Shown: piece after piece, positions 6,815 through 33,262 of the stretch
How the letters are laid out: each line of letters begins with the position of its first letter
Numbering within the stretch: position 1 is the first letter of the stretch
From: Desulfobacula sp.
GTDB taxonomy: Bacteria > Desulfobacterota > Desulfobacteria > Desulfobacterales > Desulfobacteraceae
Reading direction: 5' to 3'
Length of the DNA: 52,405 nucleotides
Assembly: GCA_018645325.1 (NCBI GenBank)
Contig: JABGOU010000026.1
Span: forward strand, 1-52,405
Program-made: the position numbers and the translations under genes
The notes under the pieces: model-generated
The model's input: the letters and a program-made list of their open reading frames with translations, nothing else
What the model was told of the DNA's origin: nothing
Databases searched by the model: none

Positions 6815-6848
6815 GTAATTGTTCAGCCCGTTAAAAAAAGTTATCCCC
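6815..6848 (+). repeat. Solo end of the 134-bp mobile element
   Basis: These 34 bases match positions 27051-27084, the left end of the complete element at 27051-27185, with one difference. They start with GTAATTGTTCAG and end in TTATCCCC. The rest of the element, including the stem-loop, is missing. It lies between two convergent genes and touches the stop codon of the M48 gene. Confidence 0.75.
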
Positions 6849-26487: not shown

Positions 26488-26520
26488 TTAATTCTCCCTT
26501 TGTATTAATTTTTATAAGTT

Positions 26521-26542
26521 ATTTTTGAGTGGGCCCTAAGCT
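26521..26542 (+). repeat. GAGTGGGCCC-type short repeat, copy 1
   Basis: The 22 bases ATTTTTGAGTGG, then GCCCTAAGCT, recur with three changes at 46145-46166 and in inverted form at 42424-42443. This copy overlaps the last codons of the Lrp gene. Confidence 0.55.
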
Positions 26543-27003
26543 AAAACTGCTTCAATTGGCCATCCCTGGTCAGGTTTGAGTTCCGAGTATACAATAAATG
26601 TTTCGATCTTTCCCATACCTGGAATGGTGGCAAGTTTTTCTTTTATAAGCTTGCCAAAATCACCAAGATCCGGAGCGATCACATGGAGTAAGTAATCGAA
26701 TCTTCCTGTAATGTGGTAACAGGCCCGGACATTGGAAATTTTTTTTATTTCATTTTCCAATATCTCAATATTCTTAACCTGGTGCCGGTCAAGGGAAATA
26801 CAGGCAAATCCCTGGGCTTTTAGTCCTATCTTTTCAGGGTCTACAACAGCCCGGTATCCTTTAATAATCCCTTTGCTTTCAAGCTTTTTGACCCTGTCCA
26901 GCATTGTTGAGGGTGCAAGCCCGGTCTCTTTGGCAAGATCAGAGTTTTTTTTTCTTCCATCCTCTTGCAATGCTTTTAAGATTTGACTGTCAATGCTGTC
27001 CAT
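26536..27003 (-). CDS. Lrp/AsnC-family transcriptional regulator
   Basis: The 155-residue protein has an N-terminal helix-turn-helix (residues about 4-50: SQILKALQEDGRKKNSDLAK, then STMLDRVKKLESKGII) and a C-terminal ligand-binding RAM domain (about 65-140, with CYHITGRFDYLLHV). These regulators sense amino acids and often control the operon they start. Here it is the first gene ahead of panB, the unknown protein and the dehydrogenase, with 48 bases between it and panB. GGAGA precedes the ATG. A mobile element sits 48 bases upstream, inside or just behind its promoter region. Confidence 0.92.
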   Translation of the reverse strand: MDSIDSQILKALQEDGRKKNSDLAKETGLAPSTMLDRVKKLESKGIIKGYRAVVDPEKIGLKAQGFACISLDRHQVKNIEILENEIKKISNVRACYHITGRFDYLLHVIAPDLGDFGKLIKEKLATIPGMGKIETFIVYSELKPDQGWPIEAVLA

Positions 27004-27050
27004 GGGTCTCCAAAATTAAATTTGATAGTTTGTAAAATTATAAAATTTTA

Positions 27051-27185
27051 GTAATTATTCAGCCCGTTAAAAAAAGTTATCCCCAAAGCCCTGTCTGATG
27101 GATATTTGCAGGAGGTTAAGCGAATAGCCTCGAAACAAATATCCACCAGACAGGGCGGTTTCAAGCGTAAGAGCTGAATAATTAC
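27051..27185 (+). mobile_element. Complete 135-bp MITE-like element, copy 1
   Basis: The ends are exact inverted repeats: GTAATTATTCAG at 27051-27062 and its complement at 27174-27185. An inner 21-base inverted repeat (27089-27109 with 27136-27156, one mismatch) forms a long stem. The element is flanked by the 8-base direct repeat AAATTTTA at 27043-27050 and 27186-27193, consistent with target duplication. There is no coding capacity. IS66-family elements characteristically begin GTAA and make 8-bp duplications, so an IS66-like transposase acting in trans is likely (inference). The insertion lies in the divergent region between the Lrp gene and purH. Confidence 0.82.
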
Positions 27186-27465
27186 AAATTTTATTCTATA
27201 GTTTATTATTTATACCGAATAAAATTATAATGTCAACAATAATAATGCAATAAATTCATAAAAAAATATAAATTTCCGAATTTTATTCGATAATAAATCC
27301 TAAAAGGGAAAAGATATGCGTATAAATGAATCAACAAGGTTCCCCTATAATTTAAGTTAAAAATTATTTGTCACGGGGAATCGCTGGCAACTTGACTTTA
27401 AGATATTAATTTGGTTCATTAAAAGAAAAATATTAATATTTATACTATAAATCAAAGGAAAGATC
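27186..27465 (+). other. Leader region upstream of purH
   Basis: After the mobile element come about 270 AT-rich bases before the first purH gene. TTCCCC (27340-27345) can pair with GGGGAA (27375-27380) around a long loop, but no known riboswitch consensus, including the purine type, was recognised. AAAGGAAA is the ribosome site of the next gene. Confidence 0.35.
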
Positions 27466-28149
27466 ATGGGCAAGAATGTAGTTGAAAAAATTGATGATTC
27501 AGTGAAAATTAAAACAATACTGATCAGTGTGTCTGATAAATCGGGTCTGGAAACTTTGATCCCAGGGCTTTTAGAGGCAAACCCAAAAATTCTAATCCTG
27601 TCAACGGGTGGAACCTATGGTAAAATAAAAGAGATCCTGGGTCACAAAGCCGATGCCTGCTTAAAACAGGTATCTGATTATACGGGTCAGCCTGAAACCC
27701 AGGGAGGGCTTGTTAAAACCCTTGATTTTAAAATTTACCTGGGACTTTTGACTGAAACCTATAATAATGCCCATCAGGAAGATTTAAAAAGAGTAGATGC
27801 TCTTGCCATTGATATGGTTGTGGTTAATCTTTACCCCTTTAGTGAAACCATAGCAAAAAAGGGAGTGAGTCTGGAAGATGCACGGGGTAATATTGATATT
27901 GGCGGTCCAACCATGATCCGGGCATCTGCTAAAAATTTTATCCGTGTGGCATCTGTGGTGGAGCCTTCCTCCTATTCTGAAATTCTGGAAAAACTTAAAG
28001 CAAACAAAGGGAGTTTATCTCTGGAGGACAGATTCGGACTTGCCCAAAAGGCGTTTGAGCACACGGCAACCTATGATAGGGCCATAAGCCGCTATCTTGC
28101 TGCAAAACCGGCCGGGGATATTAAATCATGCTATAAATCAGGAGAATAA
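27466..28149 (+). CDS. purH: IMP cyclohydrolase domain (PurH N-terminal half)
   Basis: The 227-residue protein is the MGS-like cyclohydrolase half of PurH: ILISVSDKSGLE, LILSTGGTYGKI and VVVNLYPF are typical. It closes FAICAR to IMP, the last step of purine synthesis. It ends with its own TAA, then the transformylase half starts 4 bases later with its own GGAGA site and ATG. In most bacteria both halves are one polypeptide, so purH is split here. Both halves look intact, so the split is not a pseudogene. Confidence 0.92.
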   Translation: MGKNVVEKIDDSVKIKTILISVSDKSGLETLIPGLLEANPKILILSTGGTYGKIKEILGHKADACLKQVSDYTGQPETQGGLVKTLDFKIYLGLLTETYNNAHQEDLKRVDALAIDMVVVNLYPFSETIAKKGVSLEDARGNIDIGGPTMIRASAKNFIRVASVVEPSSYSEILEKLKANKGSLSLEDRFGLAQKAFEHTATYDRAISRYLAAKPAGDIKSCYKSGE

Positions 28150-28152
28150 GTC

Positions 28153-29403
28153 ATGCCCAAAGATCTTAAACAAATGTATAAGACAATTATGGATGATCAT
28201 TTTACCCCCCAAATGGAAGTCTCATTTGTTGACAAGGATAAAAGACAGACTCTTTTTTATGAAAAGGTATCATGGGTGATTGAAGGGGTGAAAAAGGGCT
28301 TAAGATATGGTGAAAATCCAGGACAGGAAGCCGCACTCTACAAACTTGTAAACGGAAATCTGGCCCTTGGCGATGCAAAGACCATAACCCCTGGTAAATA
28401 CCTTGTGTCTGATATTGAATTGCTTCAATCAGGAAAGCATCCGGGAAAAACCAATCTCACCGATGCCGACAATGCCTTGAATATTTTAAGATATTTTACA
28501 GATACTCCCTGTGCTGTGATTGTCAAACATAACAATCCCTGCGGTGCAGCCCGGGCACAAAGCCTTGAACAAGCCTATCAAAAAGCTTACATGGCAGACC
28601 GTGTGGCTGCCTTTGGCGGTTGTATCGCACTGAATAAAACAGTGGATAAGGCTACTGCCCAGGCCATTGCCAATCAGTATGCAGAAGTTGTGGTGGCACC
28701 GGATTTTGAAGATGGGGTCCTGGACATATTGGGAACCCGGAAAAATTTAAGGGTGATCAGGATTAATGATATTGATAAGCTTCAAAGTTTCATCGGTGAG
28801 AGGGTGATTGATTTTAAGAGTCTTATGGACGGTGGTATGGTTGCCCAATGGTCTTTTGTTCCCCAAACTCTTTCTGAAAAAGATTTAATTGTGGCATCAA
28901 CCGAATATAAAGGACAGACCTACAATATAAATCGCAAGCCTTTAAAACAGGAATTAGAAGATATGCTGTTCGGATGGCTTGTGGAATCGGGCATAACATC
29001 AAATTCAGTTATTTATGTAAAAGACAATGCAACAGTGGGGATCGGAACAGGTGAGCAGGACAGGGTGGGGGTTGCAGAAATTGCAGTTGATAAGGCCTAT
29101 CGAAAGCTTGCTGACAGATATTGCTTTGAACAATATGAAGTCTCCTTTGCCGATTTAAAAGATGCGGATAAAAGGGCACAAATTGAAAATGATGTAAAGA
29201 AAGTCAAAGGCGGCCTTATAGGATCTGCCATGGTTTCTGATGCATTTTTTCCTTTCAGGGATGGTATTGACGTAGGCTTAAACCAGGGAGTTAAAGCCGT
29301 GGTTCAGCCAGGGGGATCTTTGAATGATTACCAGTCCATTGAAGCATGTAATGAAAACGATGCAACAATGGTATACACCGGTCAAAGAAGCTTTAAACAC
29401 TAG
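28153..29403 (+). CDS. purH: AICAR transformylase domain (PurH C-terminal half)
   Basis: The 416-residue protein carries the AICARFT signatures RYGENPGQEAALY and VIVKHNNPCGAA, with FPFRDGIDVG near the end and a C-terminal VQPGGSLND. It formylates AICAR using 10-formyl-tetrahydrofolate. It is translated separately from the cyclohydrolase half, 3 bases downstream. Its stop overlaps by 4 bases the 3' end of the convergent RNase gene. Confidence 0.93.
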   Translation: MPKDLKQMYKTIMDDHFTPQMEVSFVDKDKRQTLFYEKVSWVIEGVKKGLRYGENPGQEAALYKLVNGNLALGDAKTITPGKYLVSDIELLQSGKHPGKTNLTDADNALNILRYFTDTPCAVIVKHNNPCGAARAQSLEQAYQKAYMADRVAAFGGCIALNKTVDKATAQAIANQYAEVVVAPDFEDGVLDILGTRKNLRVIRINDIDKLQSFIGERVIDFKSLMDGGMVAQWSFVPQTLSEKDLIVASTEYKGQTYNINRKPLKQELEDMLFGWLVESGITSNSVIYVKDNATVGIGTGEQDRVGVAEIAVDKAYRKLADRYCFEQYEVSFADLKDADKRAQIENDVKKVKGGLIGSAMVSDAFFPFRDGIDVGLNQGVKAVVQPGGSLNDYQSIEACNENDATMVYTGQRSFKH

Positions 29404-31379
29404 ACGAATAAAGACAATTGGTCTCGTCTTGCATCAGCATGCTGGATGGTTACCTGAACGACGTCCCCATTCTTGAGCCTGATGCCGCTTGGTGGAAGTT
29501 TTGCTTCAAGCATAAATTCTTTGACCAGGACATTATAGTGATCCCTGTGACAATCAAGGACCAGGGCTTCATAGGCGGTTCCTTTTTTTGATTCCAGATA
29601 CTTGGTAATCCAGTACCGCTTTCTTGATGCCTGAACCCGGCCTGCATTGGCAATACTCATTGAAACAGACTGGATAATCGTATCAAGTTCTGACTTGGTG
29701 TAGGCCTTGCCATATCCAAATAGGGCCTTTATCTGTCGTTGTGTCAAAAGGTCATGATATCTTCTGATGGGAGATGTGGCTGTAACATAAGCTTTAACCC
29801 CTAGACCTGAATGGCTTTCAGGATCTGTCCCGATCATGGCCCGGCTCAATTGTTTTCTCTGCATGAAATTTAAGGATAAAGAGGTTTCAATACCTTTGAA
29901 TAATCTTTGTTTAGGTTGTGCCTGGGATCGAAAAACTGCAGGCATACTGTTTTTTGAAAGAAATTCAGCCATCAGCGAATTGGCAAAGATCATCATTTCA
30001 GATACTAGCATGCGCGAGGGATTTTCCCGATCAATTTTTAAATATCCAATTTCCTGATTTTCTTCGACCCAAACATTTACTTCAGGCAGGGTGATTTGAA
30101 TAGCACCGGCCTTGAGCCTTTTTTCCCGTAGGAGTGTAGCAATTTTGTACAGGGTGGTAATGGGATCATTTTTACCGTTCAAAAGGTTTGCCTCAGAATA
30201 ACTCATCTGTTTATGAACTTTGATGATACTTGGAACAACATTGTAATCCTGAATTTCGAAAAACCGGCTCATTTTAATGATGGTGCTGATACCGGGTCGT
30301 ATTTCGTTTTCTTTCAGGCTGCAGAGATCTTCGGAAAGCCTTGGAGGTATCATGGGCAGTTTATCATCGGGCATGTAAATGGAGCTTGCCCGGTCCCGTG
30401 CTGACAGATCAATGGGATCATTGGATTTGATATAGGCATCAACATCAACAATATGTACCCCAAGTCTATATCCATTTTCCGTATTTTCAAGACTTATTGC
30501 ATCATCAAAATCAAGGGTGGACTGTCCATCAATGGTGATTAAAGGTATATCTGTCAAATCCTTTCTTAAAGGATCGTTAAAGAAATTTGTATCAGCAGCG
30601 GTCAGTCTTTTTTCATGTTCCAGCACATCCTTGGAAAATACAGTGGGGATTTGCAGGGCTAAAAGATTTATATTCTCATTTTTATCCCAAATCCCTGCTT
30701 TTACAAATATATTAAACAATTGTTCCGGCGAATTGATGGATGATTTTTTGATTATATTTCTGGCTGTTAAATGAGAATCAGAATTATTGTTAAACAGGTA
30801 ATAGGATTTTAAAATATGAATAATATCCCTATCCACCTCAGTATTGCTGCCGTTTTTATTATTCAAAACCTCATTAATCCACAAAGCTCCTCTTTGAATC
30901 TGACCTTCTCTTTTTTCAGCTTCTTTGATTTGCCTTTTTCTGGCTTTAACCTGTTCAGGCGTGTAAGGAATAAAAACGGTTTTATTGAATTTAAAATACT
31001 CCCGGTCATAAAAAAAGGCTCTGATAACTGCTGCCTCATTGTCCGTGGTCACAGGGGGGTCAAAACAAAAAATGGTCATGGCAGAAAGATCAATGTCTCC
31101 TGACTCCTCATGGAGGATTTCCCATAATTCTTTAATGTTTATGGTTTGGGAAAGTTTTTTTCGATTTTGTGACAATTGTTTTAACTGGCTGACAATAAAA
31201 TCTCTGGAAAGCGAAGTGTCAAGGCACACAGATGATATATGCGATAATCGGTTTTCAGATAAACTAATTTCCCGATTATTCTCATTTAATAACTGTAACT
31301 TGTTTTTTTGCACCTGTAATATGACAGCACAAATTATTTTTTGCTGTTCAATATACTCTACAATATTCTCTTTTATCAT
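29400..31379 (-). CDS. RNB-domain exoribonuclease (RNase II/R family)
   Basis: The chosen start at 31377-31379 gives 659 residues, beginning MIKENIVEY. A longer frame to 31736 adds a hydrophobic, low-quality stretch that runs through the Smr gene on the other strand, so it is rejected. The catalytic RNB domain has ITIDGQSTLDFDDAISL with the metal-binding Asp residues, VHIVDVDAYI, and YVTATSPIRRYHDLLTQRQ. A short S1-like end follows. The N-terminal 250 residues do not show a clear cold-shock domain and are closer to the organellar or cyanobacterial RNase II-like type. The enzyme degrades RNA from the 3' end. Confidence 0.88.
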   Translation of the reverse strand: MIKENIVEYIEQQKIICAVILQVQKNKLQLLNENNREISLSENRLSHISSVCLDTSLSRDFIVSQLKQLSQNRKKLSQTINIKELWEILHEESGDIDLSAMTIFCFDPPVTTDNEAAVIRAFFYDREYFKFNKTVFIPYTPEQVKARKRQIKEAEKREGQIQRGALWINEVLNNKNGSNTEVDRDIIHILKSYYLFNNNSDSHLTARNIIKKSSINSPEQLFNIFVKAGIWDKNENINLLALQIPTVFSKDVLEHEKRLTAADTNFFNDPLRKDLTDIPLITIDGQSTLDFDDAISLENTENGYRLGVHIVDVDAYIKSNDPIDLSARDRASSIYMPDDKLPMIPPRLSEDLCSLKENEIRPGISTIIKMSRFFEIQDYNVVPSIIKVHKQMSYSEANLLNGKNDPITTLYKIATLLREKRLKAGAIQITLPEVNVWVEENQEIGYLKIDRENPSRMLVSEMMIFANSLMAEFLSKNSMPAVFRSQAQPKQRLFKGIETSLSLNFMQRKQLSRAMIGTDPESHSGLGVKAYVTATSPIRRYHDLLTQRQIKALFGYGKAYTKSELDTIIQSVSMSIANAGRVQASRKRYWITKYLESKKGTAYEALVLDCHRDHYNVLVKEFMLEAKLPPSGIRLKNGDVVQVTIQHADARRDQLSLFV

Positions 31380-31471
31380 GATGCCAACAATAACAGGAAG
31401 GCTATGTATTGTCAAACAAACAAAAGGCTTGAAAACTTGTAAATTATCAAGAAATACTATAAAATTATTCC

Positions 31472-32098
31472 ATGATAAATAAAGGTAAAAAAGGGAAAAA
31501 ACCCTTAAAACAGCGCCATAAAAATGATCTGCCCGTTTTTGATTCTGATCATGATTTATTAAAGGCATTTGAGAAAAAAGAAAAAATAAACCCAGACTCA
31601 ATGGAAAACGTTTTTGTTGAAGCTCCCAAGGAAAATCAAATAAATAAGCATGGTATAAAAGTGCTGGATACATCTTTGGAACACAAGAATTTTGCAGAAG
31701 AAGAAGAAAATTTTTCCGAATTATTGGAGGAATCATTTAAAATAAGAAAACCAGGACCTGCAAAAAAATCATCCCCTGTGCCAATAAAAAAAAGGCTGAA
31801 GAGGTATCCTCCAGTTGAAGCTGAACTGGATCTCCATGGATACACAACCATCGGCGCCCAGATGAGAACCCGCTCATTTATCACTTCAAATAAACTTAAA
31901 GGTCTTTTTACCGTAAGAATTATAGTGGGAAAGGGGCTTCATTCAGACACAGGCCCTGTGCTACCCGATGTTGTTGAAGATGTAGTCCGGGAAATGAAAA
32001 AACAGGATCTGGTGATCTTTTATGAATGGGATAAAAAAAAGAAAACAAAAAGCGGTGCTATAATAGTATATTTGAAGCAATTTGAACAATATGAATAA
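31472..32098 (+). CDS. Smr-domain protein
   Basis: The 208-residue protein has a charged, low-complexity N-terminal half and an Smr domain at about 110-205 with ELDLHGYT and RIIVGKGLHS, the two marks of the MutS2/Smr nuclease fold. Stand-alone Smr proteins may nick DNA or cleave RNA, with ribosome rescue roles known for some. The LDLHG motif is complete. It is divergent from the RNase gene with 92 bases between, and no strong ribosome site is visible. Confidence 0.85.
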   Translation: MINKGKKGKKPLKQRHKNDLPVFDSDHDLLKAFEKKEKINPDSMENVFVEAPKENQINKHGIKVLDTSLEHKNFAEEEENFSELLEESFKIRKPGPAKKSSPVPIKKRLKRYPPVEAELDLHGYTTIGAQMRTRSFITSNKLKGLFTVRIIVGKGLHSDTGPVLPDVVEDVVREMKKQDLVIFYEWDKKKKTKSGAIIVYLKQFEQYE

Positions 32099-32105
32099 TT
32101 ATTTT

Positions 32106-32238
32106 GTAGTTGTTCAGCCAGTTAAGAGAACTTATCTCAAAGCCCTGTCTGATGGATATTTGCAGAGGTTAAGCGTTTAGCATCGAAACAAATATCCATC
32201 AGACAGGGCGGCTTCAAGCAGAAGAACTGAATCGTTAC
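32106..32238 (+). mobile_element. Complete 133-bp MITE-like element, copy 2
   Basis: It has the same layout as the copy at 27051. The ends are GTAGTTGTTCAG (32106-32117) and CTGAATCGTTAC (32227-32238), and the 21-base inner arms (32142-32162, 32189-32209) pair perfectly. The 8-base direct repeat ATTATTTT flanks it at 32098-32105 and 32239-32246. The different target sequence from copy 1 argues for independent insertion. It lies between convergent Smr and mltG genes, where its long stem could act as a terminator. Confidence 0.82.
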
Positions 32239-32239
32239 A

Positions 32240-33262
32240 TTATTTTTTCTTTAGTTGATACCGCTTAACAGCCTGATTGTGCTCTTGAATGGTTTTTGAA
32301 AATTGATGAGTTGTATCTTTTTTAGAAACAAAAAAAAGATAGTCAGAATGAGCAGGGTTAAGGGCTGCAGAAAGGGATTTGGCACCTGGGTTTGCAATGG
32401 GCCCTAAAGGAAGCCCACTGATTTGATAGGTATTGTAAGGAGTTACCATCTTAATGTGTTTTCTTTTAATATTTCCGTCAAAATTTTTTATGCCGTATAT
32501 TATAGTGGGATCACTTTCAAGCCGCATTTTTTTTTTCAGCCGGTTATGAAAAACCGAGGCGATCAAGGGCCTTTCCAATTTATCTCCCGTCTCTTTTTCA
32601 ATAATGGAGGCAAGGGTCACAATCTCGTGAATGGAAAAGCCCATTGCTTTTGCCTGTTCCTCCCATTCTAAAGTGAATATATCATTAAAATGGGCCACCA
32701 TAGTTTTAATGATAGCCTTGCAATCTATTGTTTTGGGAAAAAAATAAGTGTCTGGAAAAAGATAGCCTTCCAAGGATATGGATGGTATTCCAAGAGAGGT
32801 AATAAAGGTTTTATCATGGCAAAGATCTATAAAATCTTTTTTTTTACAAAAACCTGCAGCCTCAACTAAATAACCAATTTCCTTTATATTCATTCCTTCG
32901 GGAAAGGTAATCCTGTGTAATTTCACTCTGCCTTTTAAAAGTACTTCCAGTATTTGTTCCGGAGATTTTGCAGCCGACAGAATATATTCTCCTGCCTGAA
33001 GTTTTTTGCCGGCTTTTCTATATTTTACCAATAATGTAAAATAGGTTTGATTGGATATAATAGACTGGGTTTTAAGATTTTGAGCAATACTGTCAAGACT
33101 TTGGCCCTGGTTGATTGAAAACACCTGTCCTGCGGCCGAAGGATTAAAAGGTTGTTTAACAAAAGATGATATTTCCTGGAAAAATAAAAATCCTCCACCT
33201 ATAAGTAAGATAACAAAGAAGAAAAAAATAATGCTTAAAATTTTTAATTTATTTTTGGTCAT
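32240..33262 (-). CDS. mltG: Endolytic murein transglycosylase MltG
   Basis: This 340-residue protein has one N-terminal membrane anchor (about 8-28), a LysM-like region and the YceG/MltG catalytic domain. LASIIEKETG holds the catalytic Glu, and SDPTIIYGI and PYNTYQISGLPLGPIANPG are typical. The enzyme cleaves nascent peptidoglycan strands and sets glycan length at the cytoplasmic membrane. AAAAGGAC precedes the ATG. Its stop codon touches the target duplication of the mobile element. Confidence 0.94.
   Translation of the reverse strand: MTKNKLKILSIIFFFFVILLIGGGFLFFQEISSFVKQPFNPSAAGQVFSINQGQSLDSIAQNLKTQSIISNQTYFTLLVKYRKAGKKLQAGEYILSAAKSPEQILEVLLKGRVKLHRITFPEGMNIKEIGYLVEAAGFCKKKDFIDLCHDKTFITSLGIPSISLEGYLFPDTYFFPKTIDCKAIIKTMVAHFNDIFTLEWEEQAKAMGFSIHEIVTLASIIEKETGDKLERPLIASVFHNRLKKKMRLESDPTIIYGIKNFDGNIKRKHIKMVTPYNTYQISGLPLGPIANPGAKSLSAALNPAHSDYLFFVSKKDTTHQFSKTIQEHNQAVKRYQLKKK

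Follow-up and report, generated by a model that had tools for sequence, protein, structure and literature searches.

A non-coding miniature element family of about 135 bp in Desulfobacula, very probably moved by a short IS66-family transposase

Background

Among the miniature inverted-repeat transposable elements (MITEs) described in bacteria, Chunjie of Geobacter uraniireducens measures 178-235 bp and is present in 38 copies plus 57 partial ones (PMC10969869, from its accessible text). Here we report on a non-coding MITE family of about 135 bp, two copies of which lie in a stretch of 52,405 nucleotides from the marine sulfate reducer Desulfobacula sp. (contig JABGOU010000026.1 of assembly GCA_018645325.1, referred to throughout as the window). 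As far as Chunjie is described in that text, both families are short, carry terminal inverted and direct repeats, and occur as tens of copies plus partial ones, mostly between genes; Chunjie is the longer, and the two are likened by description and not by sequence. The accessible part of PMC9769881 describes MITECca01 of Cardinium as mostly intergenic and as having reached 169 copies in a lineage-specific burst; it differs in deriving from the IS982 family and in having intact parental copies in the same genome (PMC9769881). Correia elements of Neisseria, 204 bp long, are present near genes in more than 120 copies, again according to the accessible text of PMC10969869. Unlike the Desulfobacula MITE, to which they too are likened by description, they are longer and are presented there with tested promoter, IHF and RNase III effects.

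Insertion sequences of the IS66 family generally have ends that start with GTAA and are flanked by 8-bp target duplications. Those IS66 elements of the order Desulfobacterales that encode a single transposase, such as one of 1759 bp described below, share GTAA...CAGC ends and the 8-bp duplication with the MITE, which differs in having neither a transposase gene nor detectable homology to their interior. Duplications of 8 bp are documented for the IS66-family elements ISPpa5a and ISPpa7 in the accessible portion of PMC3281130. A search of the full-text literature, with subscription journals mostly outside it, brought up no MITE linked to IS66; none derived from IS66 is described in the accessible parts of PMC3189936, PMC9769881, PMC3281130, PMC10969869 and PMC9208149, and the word IS66 is absent from the main text of the review PMC10969869.

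In this work we trace the family through the window's genome and its relatives, compare its ends with those of IS66 elements, and weigh how it spread. The family is a new one of a known kind and appears to be restricted to its genus.

Results

Two copies in the window carry exact 8-bp duplications

A preliminary description of the window had reported two MITE-like copies, each between exact 8-bp direct repeats and each with a 21-base inner stem. Direct reading of the sequence bears this out at exactly the same coordinates, and adds a third, truncated copy:

27043-27050, no strand: target duplication AAATTTTA, left of copy 1 (direct reading; single in relatives)
27051-27185, plus strand: MITE copy 1, 135 bp, GTAATTATTCAGC...GCTGAATAATTAC, 2 differences from the family consensus
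27088-27108, plus strand: inner stem arm 1 of copy 1, 21 bases
27136-27156, plus strand: inner stem arm 2 of copy 1, 21 bases, one mismatch
27186-27193, no strand: target duplication AAATTTTA, right of copy 1 (direct reading)
32098-32105, no strand: target duplication ATTATTTT, left of copy 2; it opens with the final base of the Smr stop codon
32106-32238, plus strand: MITE copy 2, 133 bp, GTAGTTGTTCAGC...ACTGAATCGTTAC, 17 differences from the family consensus
32142-32162, plus strand: inner stem arm 1 of copy 2, 21 bases, pairing perfectly with arm 2
32189-32209, plus strand: inner stem arm 2 of copy 2, 21 bases
32239-32246, no strand: target duplication ATTATTTT, right of copy 2; contains the stop codon of the minus-strand MltG gene
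6815-6848, plus strand: 34-base remnant of the left end of this MITE, with A/T-rich sequence after it

Shared terminal inverted repeats had also been proposed. That is accurate for copy 1, whose 13-base ends match each other perfectly (13/13), and generous for copy 2, where 5 of 13 positions are mismatched. Neither copy contains an open reading frame (ORF) of 80 or more amino acids (aa), and the element is non-autonomous. An Rfam scan of the window returned two tRNAs and nothing else. A remnant in a related genome (locus L062 of genome G014) stops at element position 34, as does the window remnant at 6815-6848, and deletions may therefore recur near the base of the hairpin.

Copies are numerous and individually duplicated at their targets

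The window is contig C77 of a draft genome (G000) of 4.39 Mb in 157 contigs, 90.3% complete; labels beginning with G denote genomes, of which G001, G011, G014 and G021 belong to the same genus, and those beginning with L denote loci. With up to three mismatches allowed, an asymmetric core of the MITE matches G000 73 + 62 = 135 times, the inner stem gives 149 matches on one strand and 142 on the other (a perfect palindrome counts on both), and the left end gives 73 + 60 = 133. At 135 bp each, 135 copies amount to about 0.4% of the genome. Five contigs (C16, C32, C134, C138 and C141) end within a MITE copy (L049, L050, L108, L110 and L165); the repeat thus probably interrupts the assembly, which makes the copy count a minimum.

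Our set of G000 copies holds 130 entries out of at least 135-149; they were located by stem or end pattern, and strongly decayed copies are under-counted. In L051 a nested element divides one copy into two of these entries, and the same may hold for two entries in L038. With 20 partial entries excluded, 110 two-ended copies with both flanks entered the duplication count. Their 8-bp flanks are identical in 71, differ by one mismatch in 22, by two in 11 and by three to five in 6. When left and right flanks were shuffled 1000 times, exact pairs averaged 0.36 with a maximum of 3, and other duplication lengths (4-7 and 9-12) were exact in 0-2 of the 110. Exact 8-bp duplications also flank 9 of 12 two-ended copies in G021 and 5 of 6 in G014. 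The 71 exact targets are palindromic: around the left edge of the duplication A reaches 66-75% at three positions, and T reaches 69-82% at the mirror positions. Together with the empty sites in relatives, this genome-wide count upholds the earlier claim that the MITE moved by transposition.

Among 129 two-ended copies from four genomes, 62 are 135 bp, 30 are 134 bp and 17 are 136 bp. The 13-base terminal inverted repeats have at most two mismatches between the arms in 83/110 copies. Divergence of the G000 copies from the consensus averages 5.6% and ranges from 0 to 19 bases. An alignment of 123 copies of 128-141 bp (105 from G000, 11 from G021, 6 from G014, 1 from G011) separates two classes at positions 73, 74 and 79, AA..C (66/123) and TT..A (about 56/123). 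The copy tree built on its 135 columns resolves little; species labels require 13 changes against a shuffled mean of 17.5 and are thus more clustered; taken by themselves, the G021 copies show no more clustering than after shuffling (10 changes against 10.7).

The core is present in 3 of 389 genomes of the order (G000, G014 and G011), all of them in the genus; G021 lies outside that set. Left-end matches were found in 8 of 97 genomes, namely G000 (72 + 60), G021 (19 + 18), G014 (10 + 14), G011 (1) and, with one each, four genomes outside the genus (G036, G058, G075 and G089), whose matches we set aside as they look like chance. At L054, L055, L060 and L061, left-end matches have no MITE body within the 200 bases viewed. 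An exact 49-base core pattern, run against 84,980 species genomes (a collection that may omit the window's own), matched 46 stretches, which belong to records of Ca. D. maris (JACNHV) and Desulfobacula sp. SI073_bin145 (JABIYQ) except for one contig of 'Proteobacteria bacterium Modern_marine.mb.74'.

The MITE copies of L051 and L052 each harbour a second, nested miniature element, about 157 bp long (771-927 in L051), whose ends are GGGTCCACTCAAAAATWA and which has apparently duplicated TAA; in L161 a MITE sits inside the end of such an element. Single end-like sequences of this second element occur in the window at 26519 (minus), 42429 (plus) and 46143 (minus).

One MITE end is identical to that of a single-transposase IS66 element of the genus

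IS66 transposase domains are found in 15 of 26 genomes of the genus. Four of the elements could be resolved to their ends, each with an exact 8-bp duplication, by a search that imposed a GTA or GTG start, so that the starts listed are partly by construction:

L074: IS66 element, 2441 bp, end GTAAGCGATCAG
L082: IS66 element, 2653 bp, end GTAAATATTCGG
L083/L222 (G001): single-gene IS66 element, 1759 bp, end GTAATTATTCAGC, duplication TATAATTT exact
L095: IS66 element, 1563 bp, end GTAATCGTTCAC

The 471-aa protein of L083/L222 belongs to the IS66 transposases, scoring 290.8 bits with NF033517 (cut-off 180) and matching PF03050; the target of L222 is A/T-rich. The MITE consensus starts GTAATTGTTCAGC and the complement of its end is GTAATTATTCAGC; this right end is identical to the left end of L083/L222 at 13/13 bases. 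The left end of the MITE, GTAATTGTTCAGCCCG, resembles the GTAACTATTCAGCCCG of an element in G067. Across the 389 genomes of the order, 25 match the L083 protein at E<=1e-60. Among 30 loci of this single-gene group, 14 have an end pair with an exact 8-bp duplication, and all of these start with GTAA in a search that imposed GT only. The closest single-gene elements in the order mostly end in GTAAYTAYTCAGC, one end of L228 excepted. We take this subgroup to be the one called 'ISBst12-like'.

The IS66 affinity first suggested by the GTAA start and the 8-bp duplications is thus strengthened by the 13/13 identity and corrected in one respect, in that the matching subgroup is the single-transposase type. 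Comparison with IS66 elements of the same genome, as had been proposed, met only a broken copy, whose relatives are of another, longer type; it was the same-genus element L083/L222 that matched. The sole IS66 DNA found in G000 consists of two transposase fragments on contig C106 with three recombinase-like ORFs between them. We rejected this remnant as the partner: its closest relatives are L078, L088 and L074, not of the single-gene type, and among them ends are resolved only in L074 (2441 bp), which has GTAAGCGATCAG. In the remnant itself (L033, 3115-7828) the three ORFs between the pieces of the broken transposase are adjacent and encode 404, 324 and 411 aa; presumably they resemble tyrosine recombinases, as in a recombinase-in-trio element.

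The MITE might also have arisen by internal deletion of a known IS66 element, an origin that we discarded: the consensus found no convincing match in 58 IS66-bearing loci, some of which represent the same place twice (best E 0.06). None of the sampled IS66 elements thus yields the MITE by simple internal deletion. Having no coding capacity, the MITE would be at most an IS66 derivative mobilised in trans, and not an IS66 element.

Both window sites occur without the insertion in relatives

Orthologous sites of the two window copies were compared at 18 relative loci for copy 1 and 19 for copy 2. None of the 18 loci has an insert at the copy 1 site; the flanks overlap by 8 bp in 8/18 (L184 and L193 by direct coordinates) and by 6-38 bp in the others, whose ends align poorly. 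For copy 2, both flanks are present at 17 loci and one flank only at L214 and L220, and 14/17 are empty. There the overlap is exactly 8 bp in 12/17 (L203, L204, L206-L212 and L215 directly, L213 and L216 after extrapolation of unaligned bases), 11 bp in L217 and 3 bp in L221. Two further relatives carry other inserts without MITE match at this site, of about 310 bp in L218 (G003) and about 130 bp in L219 (G001), which suggests that the gap tolerates insertions.

The remaining locus, L205 of G014 (taken to be Ca. D. maris), contains a 47-bp MITE remnant in which the left end is joined to the right end. Its own duplication, GATTATTT, is offset by one base from the window's ATTATTTT, and the site is empty in G011 (L204), a close relative about 94% identical to G014 at another locus. 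In the simplest reading, copy 2 and the G014 remnant would be two independent insertions 1 bp apart; a shared insertion is a less simple possibility, as it would need compensating changes of one base on either side. As far as sampled, each window copy is thus an insertion specific to its lineage. Copy 1 is very probably a recent insertion, and copy 2 is more diverged.

Other insertions are common to relatives, on both flanks in L070 (G021)/L051 (G000), L073 (G021)/L142 (G000) and L059 (G011)/L062 (G014), and on one flank in L065 (G014)/L120 (G000). Flanks also match between L058 and L163 and between L174 and L166, but with opposite sense, and these two pairs were excluded from the shared insertions. 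These shared insertions and the divergence of 0-19 bases point to activity both before and after the species splits.

Neighbouring genes are left with intact frames and an intact promoter-like motif

Four features adjoin the two window copies:

26536-27003, minus strand: Lrp/AsnC-type regulator, the next minus-strand gene after copy 1 (Pfam PF01037, PF13404)
27209-27236, minus strand: predicted sigma-70-like motif of the Lrp-type gene, TTGACA-N16-TATAAA, conserved and immediately upstream of copy 1
31472-32098, plus strand: Smr-domain gene, ending at the left border of copy 2 (Pfam PF01713)
32240-33262, minus strand: mltG/yceG-type gene, ending at the right border of copy 2 (Pfam PF02618, TIGR00247)

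Copy 1 starts 47 bases before the start of the Lrp/AsnC-type gene, and its outer duplication ends 15 bases from the promoter-like motif. Of 19 relative loci scanned (L183-L201), 14 show the motif or recognisable variants of it; a stricter promoter scan did not report it at 27209-27236. The suggestion that copy 1 alters the promoter did not hold, as the conserved motif is intact. Copy 1 would rather have inserted recently in the predicted leader and, because it lies just downstream of the motif, should be transcribed there as a long hairpin. Within the spacer of the motif (27209-27240) a CCGAATAAAATT block is kept in relatives and is possibly an operator. Nearby, a purH-like gene (27466-29403) forms two same-frame ORFs split by one stop at 28147-28149; an AGGAG site precedes the ATG of the second, and a family scan, which covered the first only, found the start of AICARFT/IMPCHase and an MGS domain.

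At the copy 2 site, the TAA of the Smr gene runs directly into the minus-strand mltG stop (TTA), giving TAATTA. The second stop lies within the duplicated 8 bases, so both reading frames end as before, and copy 2 would have landed between two convergent genes with neither frame changed.

Discussion

Taken together, the results make it very likely that a family of non-coding MITEs of about 135 bp has been moved by an IS66-family transposase of the short single-transposase type. In the proposed mechanism, a DDE transposase of about 470 aa, encoded by elements of about 1.7 kb, would recognise the GTAATTRTTCAGC ends of the MITE and insert it at palindromic, A/T-rich targets of the type WAAAWWWTTTTW; gap repair would leave the 8-bp duplication. 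The enzyme would move, or would have moved, the MITE in trans. We infer this driver from other genomes because the window's assembly yielded no such element; being a draft, that assembly could lack a multicopy partner.

Several observations weigh against this account. No intact IS66 element was found in G000, which for an incomplete draft is weak evidence, and the single-gene IS66 protein has no match there at E<=1e-60. The identity between MITE and IS66 ends is short, at 13 bases, and the MITE interior lacks the convincing match to IS66-bearing loci noted above. Perfect duplications are missing in 39/110 copies, 17 of which differ at two or more bases, and not all insertions are recent, several being common to relatives. 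Copies without the 8-bp duplication, and shared insertions with no empty sites, had been named beforehand as evidence against transposition. Yet 22 of the 39 imperfect duplications deviate by one base only, and both window sites exist free of the insertion elsewhere; neither finding overturns the transposition.

Alternatively, the hairpin may have been kept and spread as useful to the host, as a transcription terminator, an mRNA stabiliser or a processing site. Both window copies fold far more stably than shuffled sequences on either strand (z -8.0 to -11.0). Change per position, with three subfamily positions left out, is 2.4-3.8% in stem and loop against 9.0-9.7% in the subterminal parts, suggesting constraint on the MITE core. 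Insertions nearly always lie between genes: with flanks joined, 2/106 fall within an ORF of at least 80 aa, against 1566/1830 random positions in the same flanks (ORFs called mechanically, for the 106 of 110 two-ended copies with enough flank). However, stem and ends, though not the loop, served to locate the copies, and ascertainment accounts for part of the low change in the stem. We looked to covariation for an RNA role of the inner stem and found none: stem pairing holds in 96.2% of cells (2486 against a shuffled mean of 2485), and the 3 double changes do not exceed chance (shuffle mean 1.2, maximum 5). Shuffled pairing gives the same result, so nothing indicates that pairing itself is being kept. 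A consensus scan for a G+C-rich hairpin followed by a T-run gave zero matches at copy 2, contrary to the terminator role suggested for its stem, and at copy 1 a single weak site of 5 pairs, on the minus strand. Contexts are mixed, with neighbouring ORFs co-directional at 55 of the 106 copies, divergent at 26, convergent at 20 and unclear at 3; the co-directional copies split 28/27 by element orientation. Relatives, moreover, do without the insertion at both window sites. We regard a host-driven spread as very improbable, and host function is not needed to explain the data.

It is very improbable that a true MITE was instead moved by a transposase from outside IS66 which likewise leaves 8-bp duplications, its IS66-like ends being coincidence or convergence. 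The missing partner in its own assembly and the lack of interior homology to sampled IS66 elements would fit such a case. Against it stand the 13/13 end identity with an element of the same genus that shares the duplication length and an A/T-rich target, and the GTAAYTAYTCAGC ends that prevail among the closest single-gene elements of the order. Spread by homologous recombination or duplication of larger segments, to which insertions common to several species might point, has a negligible chance of being right, given that 71/110 copies have their own exact 8-bp duplication, differing in sequence, and that the orthologous sites of both window copies contain the 8 bp once and are empty.

A bolder version of the single-transposase IS66 account is one that we put forward tentatively and with some doubt. 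In it, this would be the first large MITE family tied to single-gene IS66, amplified before and after the Desulfobacula species split although the carrier genomes yielded no full-length partner with its ends, with the same gap between convergent stops hit twice independently, 1 bp apart, in two species.

Conclusions

The repeat may account for part of the fragmentation of the draft genome of this Desulfobacula, and the family may fill a small gap in the literature on MITEs tied to IS66. If it is indeed the first such family, its conserved hairpin core, for which no IS66 ancestry was found, would be needed by the element itself. With more than 100 insertions, and empty sister-species sites for two of them, the family is useful to measure target choice and to see whether the hairpin affects neighbouring transcripts.

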